Position numbers and translations under genes: made by a program. Below, piece after piece: positions 342 to 6,955 of a stretch of DNA of 10,197 nt. Source of the DNA: Pseudomonadota bacterium. Its GTDB lineage: Bacteria; Pseudomonadota; Gammaproteobacteria; Burkholderiales; Ferrovaceae. Below the pieces are notes generated by a model. The model ran no database searches, was not told the DNA's origin, and saw only the letters and a program-made list of their open reading frames with translations. The stretch spans positions 1 to 10,197 of the forward strand of contig JAJZHV010000027.1 of assembly GCA_021804345.1 (NCBI GenBank). The letters are read 5' to 3'. How positions within the stretch are numbered: the first letter of the stretch is position 1; each line of letters opens with the position of its first letter.

Positions 342-416
342 GCGAGCGTAGCTCAGTGGTAGAGCATCGCCTTCACACGGCGGGGGTCGGGGGTTCGAAA
401 CCCTCCGCTCGCACCA
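342..416 (+). tRNA. tRNA-Val, anticodon CAC
   Basis: A full cloverleaf can be folded by eye. The acceptor stem is GCGAGCG (342-348) pairing with CGCTCGC. The D-arm contains AGCTCAGTGGTAGAGC. The anticodon stem is TCGCC/GGCGG (one T-G pair) around loop TTCACAC, giving anticodon CAC, which reads the valine codon GTG. The T-arm is GGGGG/CCCTC around loop TTCGAAA (one G-T pair). The 3' end ACCA is encoded in the DNA. The gene is 75 nt including CCA. A CAC-anticodon valine tRNA is absent from E. coli but common in GC-richer bacteria, where it supplements the TAC isoacceptor. No terminator is visible downstream: the rdgC stop codon on the opposite strand begins 5 bp after the CCA. Confidence 0.97.
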
Positions 417-2022: not shown

Positions 2023-2686
2023 AAGCGCGCGCCAGGGGTTGTTCCAGACGCGTCCAGTGGTCAGGTAAGGCCTTACCGCCGGAGGCCGCATTTGGGGTAC
2101 CCCAGGCAGCAAAATAAAAGGGAAGCTGATTGGCTTCGGCGGCAACGCCGTCTTCCACACGATCGCCCACGTAGAGCGTTGAAGCGCATGGCAGATGATG
2201 CGCCTGCAGGATGTGCTGGATCAGGGCAGATTTGTCCGATTTAGCGGGCGTGAAGGAATCCAGTGCGTAGACTCCTTCAAAACAGGACTCCCAGCCCAGA
2301 TGGATGAGGATTTGCTGGGTTGGCAGAGCCCGTTTGTTGGTGGCAATGAACAGTCGAATCCCATGCCCCAGCAAGTTTTTCAGAAGAGCAGGAATCCCCT
2401 CGAAGGCCGGTGTGAGCAGGGCACAGGTGGCGTCGTAATGGGTTTTGAAGGCCTGCGCCAGTTGTGCAAGCAGGATCTCATCGGATGAACCCGTCAGCAG
2501 GGCCAAGGTCTCGGCCAGAGTGGGGCCGACGAGCCCTGACTCTAGGGCAACTACAGGAGTGACGCCGCAGTCCTGCAGTGCTGCGCGGTATGCGCTCAGA
2601 ATAGCTGGTGCCGAATCAACCAGAGTGCCGTCAAAGTCGAAGAGAATGGCCGACCAGCGTTTGCGAGCATCAGTCGTTGGTGGCAT
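2012..2686 (-). CDS. HAD-family hydrolase, phosphoglycolate phosphatase-like
   Basis: The start chosen is the ATG at 2686 (224 residues) because AAGGA lies about 6 nt before it; a longer in-frame start at 2731 would reach deeper into the upstream gene and lacks such support. All four HAD motifs are present: motif I LFDFDGTLVDS with the nucleophile D17 and acid D19, motif II with T116 (IATNK), motif III lysine K152 (SDKSAL), and motif IV GDRVED (174-179). The helical cap between residues 25 and 95 is of the Gph/PGMB type. These enzymes remove phosphate from small molecules in the cytoplasm, for example 2-phosphoglycolate; the substrate cannot be told from sequence. The gene overlaps the DUF5666 lipoprotein gene upstream by 17 bp, which suggests translational coupling, and overlaps the convergent cytochrome gene by 11 bp. 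Confidence 0.88.
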   Translation of the reverse strand: MPPTTDARKRWSAILFDFDGTLVDSAPAILSAYRAALQDCGVTPVVALESGLVGPTLAETLALLTGSSDEILLAQLAQAFKTHYDATCALLTPAFEGIPALLKNLLGHGIRLFIATNKRALPTQQILIHLGWESCFEGVYALDSFTPAKSDKSALIQHILQAHHLPCASTLYVGDRVEDGVAAEANQLPFYFAAWGTPNAASGGKALPDHWTRLEQPLARAFMA

Positions 2687-4328
2687 TGTTATCCTTTGAT
2701 CCGGATTGATAGGGGCGGATGACCGTGGCACTGAGCAGTCCGTTGGACAAGGCCCCGATGATATCCAGACTCTGACCGTTGGTCATGATCAGGCTGCCGG
2801 TTGCAGGATCAAGCAAGCCGGGATCGATGAACGTGTTGGCTGTCCAGTTGACGGTGACCGTGGTGCCGGATTCATTGAACGGGGTCAGCGTCAGGGTTCC
2901 GGAAGCGGTACTCCCGGATAGATTGGAAACGGTTCCCCGCAGGTCTGTGACGAGATCAGCGTTACTGCTTGTGCTGGGCGCTTTGCAGTTGATGCTGCTG
3001 GCTGTCACGGGCTGCCCGGGGGCGGAGGTTCCGAGTACATCCAGAAAAACCAGCGTGTTGCTGCTTAAGCCACTGCACCCGGTATACAGGGTGGAGGTGT
3101 TGGTGCTGATCGCCGTACCCTGCAAGGTAAAGGTCTGCGCTATCGGTCCTGCCCAGCTGTTGGTACTGCCTTTGATCTCCACCAACTGCATATTGCTGGC
3201 GGCATTGGACAAGGTAACGTAATGATCTTCTGTCTGGTGGCTGCCATACAGCGCAGCGGCGTTCAAACCGCTGCCCGACAGGGCGCCGGTGAGACGTACG
3301 TAATCGCCGTCACCGATATTGCCCTGATAGCTGCTGGGTAATGTAACTAAAGTACCCTGTACCAGCGCGGTGTTGTTGGTCGGATTGTAGTTACTGATCA
3401 GCCCACTGATCTGGGCAACGGCTTGACCGGCGGTATTAGCGCTCAAACTGGTATTGGTGATCAGGGTGGCCGGGATGCCCTGGCCCGAGCTGGCGCTGTT
3501 CCAGATGTTGCGGGCAACCCAGGCAGACAGGGTTTGACCCGTTGCCAGGGAGCTGGGTAGCACCCCCTGCAAGGTGATGCCCGTGGAGCCGGCGCCGGAG
3601 CCGGCATTGAGCGTGACCTGGCTGGCGGCGGCATTGATGCTGGTTACGATGCCACCCAGGTGTACCGGTGCGATGGCAGAGGGCGTGGTGGCGGTGATTT
3701 CCAGTCGAGAGGCCACGAGAATCCAAGCGTTGTGCGTGCCATCTAGGACCCAGGTGCCATGCGCTTCCACTTCGTTGCCGGGACCCATCTGGCCCAGGCA
3801 GTCGGCAATAGGCAAAGTGGCACTATAGCTGGGGTTGACCAGCGTGCACCCGGACAACACGGTGGTGATGCCCAGAGGGGTATTGGCAGCCGCGGTCACA
3901 ATACGCACCCATTGCCCGTCTATCTGGGCCCACCAGTCCCCCGTGGTGGCATCCAGAACCGGTGACAGGGTTAGGGGTCCGGACAGCGCAGGCAGTATCG
4001 TCACCGCCGTCGCATTTCCCGAGGCATCCAGAGTGGCCTGAACACGGTCTCCCAGTTTCAGTAGTCCCGTAATGGCCTGGCCGGCGCTATCCTCCTGGTC
4101 GATCGTTGTGCTGGTGGTGGTCAGATATTCCGTGCCATCGATAAACACACTACCAAACCCCGTCACCAGCCCCTGTACCACCCCAGTTCCACCGCTGCCC
4201 ACACCGGCCGAGTTGAGCAAGGCTGCCACACCCCCGCCGCCACAGGAACTCAGGAAGGTGCACAGTCCCAGCAATCCCAGGAGCCGTGCCAAGGGTTTGA
4301 GGGGCGGGGTGAGCGCAGGTGCATTCAT
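2670..4328 (-). CDS. Secreted lipoprotein with DUF5666 domains
   Basis: The ATG at 4328 gives 552 residues and is preceded by CTGGAG 9 nt upstream; an in-frame ATG at 4373 lacks a ribosome site and would give an unusually long leader. The N-terminus is a lipoprotein signal: charged K11 and R15, a leucine-rich core, and lipobox LSSC with the lipidated cysteine at C29, followed by a glycine run. No aspartate follows the cysteine, so by the E. coli rule the protein would go to the outer membrane. The segment GTGVVQGLVTGFGSVFIDGTEY (48-69) is the typical start of a DUF5666 domain, and similar beta-rich units appear near 222-275, 305-360 and 463-538. The mature part is rich in Ser, Thr, Asn and Gly and has four cysteines (161, 177, 418, 448). 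Function is unknown. It lies 48 bp after a DUF6502 gene, a pairing seen in related bacteria. Confidence 0.85.
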   Translation of the reverse strand: MNAPALTPPLKPLARLLGLLGLCTFLSSCGGGGVAALLNSAGVGSGGTGVVQGLVTGFGSVFIDGTEYLTTTSTTIDQEDSAGQAITGLLKLGDRVQATLDASGNATAVTILPALSGPLTLSPVLDATTGDWWAQIDGQWVRIVTAAANTPLGITTVLSGCTLVNPSYSATLPIADCLGQMGPGNEVEAHGTWVLDGTHNAWILVASRLEITATTPSAIAPVHLGGIVTSINAAASQVTLNAGSGAGSTGITLQGVLPSSLATGQTLSAWVARNIWNSASSGQGIPATLITNTSLSANTAGQAVAQISGLISNYNPTNNTALVQGTLVTLPSSYQGNIGDGDYVRLTGALSGSGLNAAALYGSHQTEDHYVTLSNAASNMQLVEIKGSTNSWAGPIAQTFTLQGTAISTNTSTLYTGCSGLSSNTLVFLDVLGTSAPGQPVTASSINCKAPSTSSNADLVTDLRGTVSNLSGSTASGTLTLTPFNESGTTVTVNWTANTFIDPGLLDPATGSLIMTNGQSLDIIGALSNGLLSATVIRPYQSGSKDNNATND

Positions 4329-4376
4329 GGGTATGGACTCCAGGGTAAGGGGCGTTCGAGAAATGTGGGTCATGGC

Positions 4377-5249
4377 TTAAAGGGGTGGGGCGGCTTTGCG
4401 CGGCTTGCGTTTTTTGACAGGAACGGAGTCGATCTGAATGGGCTCAGAATAGCAGAACATGCCCAATCGAATGCGTTGATCGCCCCCCTGTGGCTCGTCC
4501 TGGTCGCTCAGGGGAGTGGCGGCCCGTAGCATGGTTTGCAGGGTTTTGGACCAGAGCGACAGGGCCAGGCGCTCCAGGACCTTGATGGACTCCTGGGACA
4601 AGCCATCTGCAAATACGCTTTGTTCGAGGAATTTCCGAGGCCCTGGCAGGCTCAGGTTATGTACGCCGGCTGCTAGATGGTCGGCGCAACTGCCAGCAAA
4701 CAGGTTGCCCGCCTCCACCGATTGCGGGTCCATGATGAAGGCATCACGACAGAGCCGAACCTGCTCCTGCTCATCGGTGACCATCCCCAAGCGAATCAAC
4801 TCGTTGAGAATGGCCCGCGGATGAACATCGTTAGAGACTTGCCGGGTCACGGCTTCGAAGGATGGAGCCTCTCCCGCAAAGGGCAGCACCTCGGGCCATT
4901 CCAGGGTCATCCAGCGGGTGATGACCTGGGAGGGAACAGTGGGTCGCCCCAGTTGCTCGCGCGTGACTTCGGTGGGCTTGCGCTCTTGGGTGGCCAGGGA
5001 TTCCAGCAGGGCTTTCACATCCTTGCGGTGCAATCCCGAGAGCATGCTGATGGCGGAATCGTTTTGTTTGCCGCCCAGACGGTCCAGTTCGTGACGCGCC
5101 TGATCCAGAAAAACCTGCTTCATGGCAGCCGAGAATTCCGGGTGTCGCACGCCTGATCGCAACAGCCATAAAATGAGCGGCTGCATGATCACCAGCGCCT
5201 GTTGAAGCACTTGATCGGCATGAAGGGCGGCAGGGGAGGAAGATTCCAT
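4377..5249 (-). CDS. DUF6502 family protein, probable DNA-binding regulator
   Basis: The 290-residue product matches the DUF6502 family: LRSGVRHPEFSAAMKQVFLDQA (30-51) and, after a short gap, SAISMLSGLHRKDVKALLESL (65-85), which reads like a helix-turn-helix with RKDV in the second helix. A second helical unit, FEAVTRQVSNDVHPRAILNE (131-150) followed by LIRLGMV, resembles a winged-helix element. There is no signal peptide or membrane segment; the C-terminus is a basic tail (KKRKPRK, 279-285). The start chosen is the ATG at 5249. An in-frame GTG at 5288 would add 13 residues but place the promoter palindrome inside the gene. No Shine-Dalgarno precedes 5249, and the -10 box ends 6 nt before it, so the mRNA may be leaderless. 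Its partner downstream is a DUF5666 lipoprotein. The role as autoregulator is inference; the biochemical function is not established. Confidence 0.8.
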   Translation of the reverse strand: MESSSPAALHADQVLQQALVIMQPLILWLLRSGVRHPEFSAAMKQVFLDQARHELDRLGGKQNDSAISMLSGLHRKDVKALLESLATQERKPTEVTREQLGRPTVPSQVITRWMTLEWPEVLPFAGEAPSFEAVTRQVSNDVHPRAILNELIRLGMVTDEQEQVRLCRDAFIMDPQSVEAGNLFAGSCADHLAAGVHNLSLPGPRKFLEQSVFADGLSQESIKVLERLALSLWSKTLQTMLRAATPLSDQDEPQGGDQRIRLGMFCYSEPIQIDSVPVKKRKPRKAAPPL

Positions 5250-5255
5250 AGGGGT

Positions 5256-5284
5256 ATTATATGTGAAATTTTCACATAAATAAA
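5256..5284 (-). promoter_or_regulatory. Promoter with palindromic operator for the DUF6502-DUF5666 operon
   Basis: On the minus strand a perfect -10 box TATAAT runs 5261-5256, 6 nt before the ATG at 5249, and a weak -35 (TTTATT, 3 of 6) runs 5284-5279, with a 17-bp spacer. The spacer is filled by a 19-bp perfect palindrome, 5278-5260, with half-sites TATGTGAAA and TTTCACATA around one central base; it overlaps the -10 by 2 bp. A dimeric protein bound here would block RNA polymerase. The most economical candidate is the adjacent DUF6502 protein, but that is inference. Confidence 0.7.
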
Positions 5285-5471
5285 GCACTGGATGTCCAAG
5301 TCTGTATGGTCTGGACTAAACAGGCAAGCTTCCAGGGGAGGGCAGGAACGGGATTACGCGGGCAAAAGCACCGCATTGGGTTGATCATAAACAATTTCTT
5401 CCCCAAAGGGAACCGCTGCCGTTGATTCGGATTGTCCATGAGGCACAGGAAGCGATCCAGTCAGCAGGTGC

Positions 5472-5999
5472 TCAATGCCCTTCAAAGCTACAGAGCGCAA
5501 AGACCGGATAGCCCAGATTTTCCAGGCGCACGCGCCCGCCCAACTCGGGCAGATCGACCACAAAGGCGCATTCCACCACCTGCGCACCTAGGCGTGCAAG
5601 CAATTGGGTGGCGGCCTGAGCGGTGCCTCCGGTGGCCAGCAAATCGTCCACCAGCAAAACGCGCTCGCCCGCATCAATGGCGTCCTGATGAATTTCCATC
5701 CGGTCGGTACCATATTCCAAGGTGTAATCATGGCCAAAGGTGGGTGCAGGCAATTTTCCCTGCTTGCGCAGGGGCACGAAGCCCACACCCAGAAGATAGG
5801 CCAAAGGGGCCCCCAGAATAAAGCCGCGGGATTCGATCGCTGCAACCTTGTGCAGGGGTTGGTTCTTGTAACGCTTGGCCAGTTCCTGGATAGTCAGCCG
5901 AAAACCCACAGGATCCTTGAGCAGGGTGGTGATATCTCGAAACTGGATGCCCTCTCTGGGGTAGTGCGGAATGGTTCGAATCAGGGATTTGATGGGCAT
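5472..5999 (-). CDS. apt: Adenine phosphoribosyltransferase
   Basis: The 175-residue product has the hallmarks of Apt, which converts adenine and PRPP to AMP and pyrophosphate in purine salvage in the cytoplasm. The PRPP-binding loop VLLVDDLLATGGTA spans 114-127, with the DD pair at 118-119. The N-terminal PHYPREGIQFRDITTLLKDP (11-30) and AIESRGFILGAPLA (54-67) are typical. The length is close to the usual 170-185 residues, so the gene appears intact. GGAG lies 7 nt before the ATG at 5999. It follows the acyltransferase gene by 71 bp on the same strand and may share its transcript. The window also holds purL, so both de novo and salvage purine genes are present, although on opposite strands. 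Confidence 0.95.
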   Translation of the reverse strand: MPIKSLIRTIPHYPREGIQFRDITTLLKDPVGFRLTIQELAKRYKNQPLHKVAAIESRGFILGAPLAYLLGVGFVPLRKQGKLPAPTFGHDYTLEYGTDRMEIHQDAIDAGERVLLVDDLLATGGTAQAATQLLARLGAQVVECAFVVDLPELGGRVRLENLGYPVFALCSFEGH

Positions 6000-6025
6000 G
6001 GCAACACTCCAGAGGGCCGTTTGTA

Positions 6026-6050
6026 GCGCCTAATCCCGGAGCGGGAGCGC
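6026..6050 (-). other. Small hairpin between the acyltransferase gene and apt
   Basis: TCCCG (6034-6038) and CGGGA (6042-6046) form a 5-bp stem with a 3-nt loop, extended by outer GCGC/GCGC (6026-6029, 6047-6050) across a 4-nt bulge. No T-run follows on the transcribed strand, so it is more likely an mRNA structure than an intrinsic terminator. Confidence 0.3.
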
Positions 6051-6070
6051 GCATTGAATCCATCAGAAGT

Positions 6071-6955
6071 TTACTCCAGGGACTGTGGCCAGCGGTAAAA
6101 ATACGGTTCGCGGGGATCGGGGCGGGTGCGAAATCGTTTATGGCCCCAGTAGTATTGCGAGGGGTGCAACCGGGCCTGTTGTTCGATGAACTGGTTCATC
6201 CGGGCCAGATCTGCCTGCAGATCACTGCCTGGAAAATCATTCCAGGGCGGAAAAAATTCCACTTCATAGCCGCGATGATGCGGTAGTTGGTGACAGGCGC
6301 AGGGAATGACCAGTGCGCCTGTGGCCTTGGCAAGCCAAGGCAGGGTTGGTACCGTCGCCGCAGGAATGTCAAAAAAGGGAACGAAGAGAGAGTCTTTGCC
6401 GCCAAAATCCATGTCGGGCAGAAAATACAGATTACGCCCCTCTCGCAGGGCCCGCATCAACGGGCGCAGGCCCTTTTTTCGTTCCAGCATGACCACGTCT
6501 CCCAGGCGTTCCCGGGCGGCGCGAATGTGCCGATCGATCAAAGGATTTTTATGGGGGGTAAAAAATCCCACCCCCTTGAAGGCCATGCCCATCACAGCCC
6601 CCTGTATTTCCAGCCCCACGGTATGGAATGTCAGGAAGATGATAGGGCGCGAGATGTTCTGGGTGTATTCCAGGTGTTTGAAGCGTACCAGAGCGCGAAT
6701 TCGCTCCTGGGAAGACCACCACAGAATACCCAGTTCCAAAAAACTGCGAATCAGCGCGGCCAGATGCGCCTGGGTCATTTGATCGCGCGCGCGCAGGGAG
6801 TGCCCGGGAAAACAGGCCTTTAGGTTGATGCGGGTGGTACGAGCCAGGGCGCTCCGGGCCCCCACCATGGCCAGCAGGGAAGCAATGGCGCCCAGCATGC
6901 GCAAGGGCAGAAAATGCAACGCCCACAGTAATCCCAGGAGAAGGCGGGTACCCAT
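6071..6955 (-). CDS. Lipid A biosynthesis late acyltransferase (LpxL/HtrB type)
   Basis: The 294-residue product belongs to the LpxL/LpxM lysophospholipid acyltransferase family, which adds a secondary acyl chain to Kdo-lipid A at the inner face of the cytoplasmic membrane. The catalytic H-x4-E box is HTVGLE at 111-116, following PIIFLTF. Other typical parts are the N-terminal hydrophobic anchor (about 3-33), FFTPHKNPLIDRHIRAARE just after the box, LPDMDFGGKDSLFVPFF, and the C-terminal WGHKRFRTRPDPREPYFY. The length is near the usual 290-310. The ATG at 6955 is 2 nt after the ygfZ stop, so translation is probably coupled, and no clear ribosome site is visible. Whether it transfers laurate, myristate or another chain, and at which position, cannot be read from the sequence, so no symbol is given. 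Confidence 0.9.
   Translation of the reverse strand: MGTRLLLGLLWALHFLPLRMLGAIASLLAMVGARSALARTTRINLKACFPGHSLRARDQMTQAHLAALIRSFLELGILWWSSQERIRALVRFKHLEYTQNISRPIIFLTFHTVGLEIQGAVMGMAFKGVGFFTPHKNPLIDRHIRAARERLGDVVMLERKKGLRPLMRALREGRNLYFLPDMDFGGKDSLFVPFFDIPAATVPTLPWLAKATGALVIPCACHQLPHHRGYEVEFFPPWNDFPGSDLQADLARMNQFIEQQARLHPSQYYWGHKRFRTRPDPREPYFYRWPQSLE

Follow-up and report, generated by a model that had tools for sequence, protein, structure and literature searches.

A conserved palindrome in the core promoter of a DUF6502 operon and its probable role as a DUF6502 operator

What, if anything, binds a perfect 19-base-pair (bp) palindrome that lies within the core promoter of a DUF6502 gene? The question is raised by a 10,197-nucleotide stretch of DNA from a Ferrovaceae bacterium (contig JAJZHV010000027.1; here the window, which is contig C175 of a 1.17-Mb draft genome with 70% completeness), for which a sequence-only reading had proposed that the DUF6502 protein represses its own promoter through this palindrome. 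Comparison of DUF6502 genes and their upstream regions makes it very probable that DUF6502 is a DNA-binding regulator acting at the palindrome, where it would repress its own DUF6502-DUF5666 operon, in addition to a few unlinked promoters of secreted and membrane proteins. The assignment of the palindrome as the DUF6502 operator is well supported by sequence comparison.

The palindrome and the promoter

The proposed operator, TATGTGAAA-T-TTTCACATA, occupies positions 5260-5278 of the window and was defined by its own sequence and by homologous sites. Read on the minus strand, the order of elements is TTTATT (5284-5279), a spacer of 17 bp (5278-5262), TATAAT (5261-5256), the six bases ACCCCT (5255-5250) and the ATG of the DUF6502 gene (5249-5247), so that the inverted repeat lies between the predicted -35 and -10 of the regulator's own core promoter and has two bases in common with TATAAT. 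The putative -10 matches the consensus at 6/6 positions, and the putative -35, assigned by position, matches TTGACA at 3/6. The coordinates that the sequence-only reading gave for a palindrome filling the spacer and overlapping TATAAT (5256-5284) were exact, with a weak -35. A promoter scan of positions 4300-6100 reported no sigma-70-like site. No Shine-Dalgarno sequence was seen in the six bases that separate TATAAT from the ATG, and transcription probably starts at or beside the A of the ATG, giving a leaderless mRNA.

Allowing up to three mismatches, the window contains the palindrome once, and it was found in 0 of 200 shuffles. Perfect dyads with arms of at least 9 bases and a centre of 0-1 base are expected 0.13 times per resampled window (60 resamples), and the bare palindrome, taken alone, is only mildly unusual. 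The earlier argument that a dyad at this place would be a rare accident is too strong for the bare dyad; the significance of the palindrome comes from its conservation in relatives and not from the perfection of the dyad.

The DUF6502 protein and its operon

The DUF6502 gene (4377-5249, minus strand) encodes 290 amino acids from the ATG at 5249, the same length as in a public collection. Its product belongs to PF20112 (57.7 bits against a cut-off of 27, E = 1.1e-15, residues 21-267), which was the only Pfam family found at E≤0.001; no TetR N-terminal helix-turn-helix (HTH) model matched. The second gene of the operon (2670-4373, minus strand) is a DUF5666 lipoprotein-like gene by Pfam match, with an open reading frame (ORF) of 567 amino acids from the first ATG and an uncertain start. 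NCBIfam gave no match above cut-off for either protein. A GGTG-type motif like that of the window's DUF5666 gene was found 3' of DUF6502 in 47/56 loci with enough downstream DNA.

An AlphaFold2 model of DUF6502 was made with 60 sequences (mean predicted local distance difference test score 83, predicted template modelling score 0.66). In the model, helices 64-71 and 75-87 form a predicted HTH, with SGLHRKDV (71-78) at the turn and the start of the second helix, followed by a winged helix (131-166) and long C-terminal helices. When compared with a set list of families, residues 36-87 of the model superposed on TetR HTHs and residues 103-172 on winged helices. This suggests a TetR-like HTH (36-87) together with a winged helix (103-172), and the fold is only a suggestion because a Foldseek search of the pdb with the model gave no match at E≤0.001; a sequence search of solved structures likewise returned nothing significant. 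G72, H74, R75, K76 and D77 did not vary among the 60 aligned sequences. In the genomes as read, the DUF6502 frames of G324 (L116), G604 (L241) and G643 (L250) each contain a single internal stop.

Conservation of the site in Ferrovaceae

The nearest DUF6502 record with an organism title was from a draft Ferrovum sp. (89% identity, residues 1-289), a genus placed in Ferrovaceae, Betaproteobacteria, and DUF6502 relatives were present in 31/61 close-relative genomes. Promoters were compared for 17 of 28 Ferrovaceae loci, from genera g1, g3, g5, g7 and g8, with hexamers assigned by position. In 16/17 of these the dyad fills a 17-bp spacer between -35 and -10, and the ATG follows 4-7 bases after the -10; consensus matches were 3-6/6 for the -35 and 3-6/6 for the -10. 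Most of the compared relatives have TTGACA, TTGACT, TTGCCA or TTTACT at the place of TTTATT and half-sites of the TATGGGAAA type, GTGA on both sides being the form of the window's genus. At a g5 locus (L018) the site is present, but the gene starts further downstream. Three g6 loci, among the 11 left out of the comparison, have a weaker N5 site with one mismatch.

Conservation across the order and in named genomes

For the order, the upstream regions (350 bases; fewer for L139) of 93 DUF6502 genes were examined, after removal of L078, where the upstream region was unclear, and of the duplicates L093 and L140. TGGGA-N5-TCCCA was found upstream of 52/93 genes at up to one mismatch and of 75/93 at up to two. 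The same regions searched with 19 permuted half-sites gave 0-5 and 3-22 matches at these thresholds, and other half-site spacings gave 0-10 at one mismatch, with N6 giving the 10. Many of the promoters contain two or three copies of the dyad. In L084, L085, L092, L099, L118 and L139 the operators are followed by GTCAA (TTGAC on the other strand), and a site there seems to lie within a divergent promoter, in its spacer.

A scan of named genomes, which overlaps partly with the close-relative and order genome sets, retained 80/97 loci, of which 79 were analysed (L311, with 155 bp upstream, was removed) and 76 were HRK-type, L328, L352 and L365 being without a readable helix. The site was found in 71/76 of the loci with an HRKD/E helix and in 59/63 beyond the 13 nearest rows, in a scan that favours HRKD members because its patterns include SGLHRKDV. 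One of the 5/76 loci above one mismatch, L288, carries the variant of the window's own genus. A palindrome shared upstream of DUF6502 homologues, whose absence the sequence-only reading had taken as the result that would speak against an operator, was found in both sets.

The motif and the gene also occur in the same genomes. With the order genome sets for DUF6502 and for motif counts (399 genomes) taken as identical, RTGGGAAANTTTCCCAY at up to one mismatch was present in 31/65 genomes with DUF6502 vs 24/334 without (Fisher's exact test, p = 5e-14), and 10 of the 11 genomes with a perfect RTGGGAAANTTTCCCAY site have DUF6502. This co-occurrence derives largely from DUF6502 promoters, and some matches are inside genes: the window's own genome (G000) is counted in the 31/65 through an intragenic match (L184, contig C32, one mismatch to the RTGGGAAANTTTCCCAY pattern). 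We claim no order-wide regulon because the matches away from DUF6502 were mixed, several of them (L177, L179, L180 and L184) lying inside long ORFs; the DNA context of L186 is much the same as that of L180.

Recognition helix and operator type vary together

The residues at the start of the predicted recognition helix were compared with operator type for 91 order genes (L031 and L137 removed). TGGGA-N5-TCCCA was present for 45/65 genes with H/NRKD/E vs 6/26 of the others, and TTGGGA-N6-TCCCAA for 6/7 with T/SRKD/E vs 4/84 of the others. In a held-out set of 100 of 137 listed further class genes, mostly the best-scoring, T/SRKD/E genes had N6 in 43/55 and N5 in 0/55, while HRKD/E genes had N5 in 6/14 and N6 in 0/14; permuted half-sites gave 0-3 and other spacings 0-2 matches. 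NRKE genes were mixed, with N6 in 8/17 (class set) and N5 in 2/2 (order set), and three NRKE-type loci (L241, L244, L249) have AACGGGATTATTATCCCGTT-like dyads, a further half-site variant.

Three further pairings were noticed post hoc: GTGGAAA half-sites with HRQD/E (L095, L099), GTGTGA half-sites with HRKY (L092, L115) and AAATGTGC half-sites with NRRE and TRRE (L129, L133), the site in L129 being a perfect 10+1+10 dyad. No AAATGTGC-type site was seen in L122, the third member of the NRRE/TRRE group. The HTH-like segment SGLHRKDV singled out in the sequence-only reading falls at the turn and the start of the predicted recognition helix, and differences in this helix are accompanied by differences in the operator.

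On a helix-masked tree the N5/N6 switch needs 2 changes, where shuffled labels need 35 on average and 27 at minimum; the operator switch is therefore mainly one deep split. Neither type was present at one mismatch for 66/174 genes. The T/SRK clade is spread over seven host families in the order set. Both operator types occur together in 2/27 multi-gene genomes, where each type goes with its matching helix; the remaining 25 lack this combination, and 0 are swapped. Of the two, G270 has a TRKD gene with N6, two HRKD genes with N5 and an NRRE gene with neither, and G657 has an NRKE gene with N6 and an HRKE gene with N5. Because these paralogues carry different operators that match their helices, a single host-wide regulator is argued against.

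Several N6 promoters have the -10 at the centre of the dyad; L188, for example, has TTGACA, 17 bases, TATATT within TTTGGGAATATATTCCCAAA and then TATGG, which contains the ATG. With the site either in the spacer or centred on the -10, a bound protein would exclude RNA polymerase, and both arrangements suggest a leaderless message.

Proposed mechanism and alternatives

We infer for DUF6502 direct binding, a dimer, repression, a leaderless start and a releasing signal. A DUF6502 dimer would bind the palindrome with one TetR-like HTH per half-site (TATGTGAAA in the window, TATGGGAAA in relatives). The bound protein would mask both the spacer and the -10 box of the promoter that drives its gene and block RNA polymerase. 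Expression of the DUF6502-DUF5666 operon, with a transcript beginning at the ATG, would in this way limit itself until a signal causes the protein to leave the site. Sites of this kind would also act at a small number of unlinked promoters, of genes for secreted or membrane proteins; in the window's genome this is probably the promoter of one PA2779-family gene. Of the autorepressor first suggested for this locus, the link between site and DUF6502 was strengthened by conservation and helix covariation, and its repressing action is deduced from the position of the site.

Two results weigh against this mechanism. More than one mismatch to TGGGA-N5-TCCCA was found for 41/93 order genes, and eight Ferrovaceae loci of genus g2 (L019-L026) have no N5 operator upstream of DUF6502; three g2 loci have a lopsided N6-type match about 176 bases upstream. 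The DUF6502 genes of L019-L026 have an HRKD helix and a DUF5666-like gene after them.

DUF6502 might bind the palindrome and activate, or repress some promoters and activate others, and the two or three tandem sites found at a greater upstream distance in many families, some of them apparently within a divergent promoter, would suit such a role. In MerR-type activation the dyad lies in a spacer of 19-20 bp. The Ferrovaceae site lies between -35 and -10 at the normal 17 bp, for which a promoter of this over-long type was rejected, and in the T/SRK clade the site often covers the -10 itself, which makes activation unlikely.

Another regulator, of CRP/FNR, MarR or TetR type and encoded elsewhere, could bind the site, with DUF6502 only a target. 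The assignment to DUF6502 is based on comparison, and the window's TGTGA...TCACA resembles the CRP half-site. A CRP site is TGTGA-N6-TCACA; the spacing in the window is N5, and a CRP site was rejected for this reason. That the operator type tracks the clade of DUF6502 in different host families and can differ among the paralogues of one genome, and that motif and gene co-occur across genomes, renders a separate regulator quite improbable.

As a perfect inverted repeat the dyad could also be read as an RNA hairpin or terminator, a reading that was rejected as very improbable given that it lies upstream of the expected transcription start, would have a one-base loop and has half-sites that differ in step with the protein helix. 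Chance in an A+T-rich promoter, for all that the expectation per window is 0.13, is contradicted by conservation, since relatives from many families keep the position, size and half-site of the dyad, and was dismissed as extremely improbable.

Returning to DUF6502 as an operator-binding repressor, we lean slightly towards a wider generalization, in which DUF6502 proteins would be undescribed, widespread double-HTH regulators. In these, the residues at the helix start (HRKD, T/SRKE, HRQD/E, HRKY, N/TRRE) would track the half-site letters and the N5/N6 spacing, with the -10 beside the operator or at its centre. Each member would repress its own leaderless operon, usually with a gene for a DUF5666-like surface protein in second place; in the window's family of iron oxidisers, further envelope and redox genes would be repressed as well.

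Other candidate targets

In the window's own genome, one more site was found at up to three mismatches to the palindrome; it has three mismatches, and the ATG of a PA2779-family gene follows it after 18 bases. Similar genes start 15-21 bases after sites in L059, L060, L071 and L072. The NCBIfam scan of these genes covered the L002 protein (PA2779 family) and the PA2778-family neighbour in L072, and no paper on PA2779 together with PA2778 was found in the literature searched.

Sites at up to two mismatches were present in 20/32 family genomes, compared with 7/32 for the reversed control. Of 22 family sites away from DUF6502, 20 were looked at and assigned by eye, and 18/20 lie near the starts of six recurring kinds of genes (L056 and L074 fit none). 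These are PA2779-like genes, thioredoxin-DUF4266 genes (L055, L058, L063), genes for a membrane protein, either alone or accompanied by a DUF4382 lipoprotein (L057, L067, L068), and genes for Thr-rich, Gly-rich and small Gly-rich membrane proteins. The thioredoxin and DUF4266 assignments in L063 and the DUF4382 assignment in L067 were confirmed by Pfam; DUF3570 and ApbE in site-bearing loci were recognised by eye only. Flavin-based extracytosolic redox clusters, in the part of the source consulted, contain thioredoxin, DUF4266, DUF3570 and ApbE (PMC8238504).

The Thr-rich low-complexity proteins near DUF6502-type sites in L062, L063, L069 and L070 have about 205-279 amino acids and a similar C-terminus (HPQ or HPM ... 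VTVTL, VTVTF or VSVTF). The L063 protein had no match in Pfam.

Significance

DUF6502 is best read from these comparisons as a so far undescribed regulator family. Neither DUF6502 nor spelling variants of its operator were mentioned in the literature searched, in agreement with the earlier remark that no DUF6502 operator has been described. If the proposal is true, a family found in 65/399 order genomes and 100/370 class genomes would receive its first function, its operator would be directly testable and its target promoters predictable, and in Ferrovaceae DUF6502 would be linked to envelope, possibly redox, proteins. The natural helix-operator pairs allow study of the joint change of recognition helix and site.

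Other features of the window

Another perfect dyad (9+5+9), GCCACCACC-N5-GGTGGTGGC, is located at 1370-1392 between divergent rdgC and cytochrome b561 genes and folds as a strong hairpin (-18.8 kcal/mol, z -3.9). A tRNA-Val gene (anticodon cac; 342-416, plus strand) adjoins rdgC.

Comparison with known systems

DUF6502 differs from the TetR family in matching only PF20112 in Pfam and in having a predicted winged helix and different C-terminal helices. Compared with the winged helices of GntR, MarR and CRP, that of DUF6502 is the second of two DNA-binding-like modules and has no sequence family match. The lambda CI and Tn1721 TetR proteins and their operators also differ from those of DUF6502. 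What the two share with it is a regulator gene on a leaderless transcript, predicted for DUF6502 and, as cited in the consulted part of PMC3017554, reported for both.

The nearest studied case found, as far as the consulted part of the same paper describes it, is AcuR of Rhodobacter sphaeroides, a TetR-family protein with acrylate as co-inducer (PMC3017554). In the acuR-acuI-dddL operon the first gene encodes this HTH repressor, the inverted-repeat operator lies in its own promoter (TTGATT/TATTAT), the transcript has neither leader nor Shine-Dalgarno sequence, and related operators occur upstream of acuR-like genes elsewhere (PMC3017554). DUF6502, by contrast, has no Pfam TetR match and a predicted winged helix; its operator and its partner gene are different ones, and both repression and a leaderless start are deduced from the promoter. 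The likeness to AcuR, within what that part of the source covers, consists of an inverted repeat in the regulator's own core promoter, a predicted HTH regulator as first gene, related sites upstream of homologues and a start that would be leaderless.
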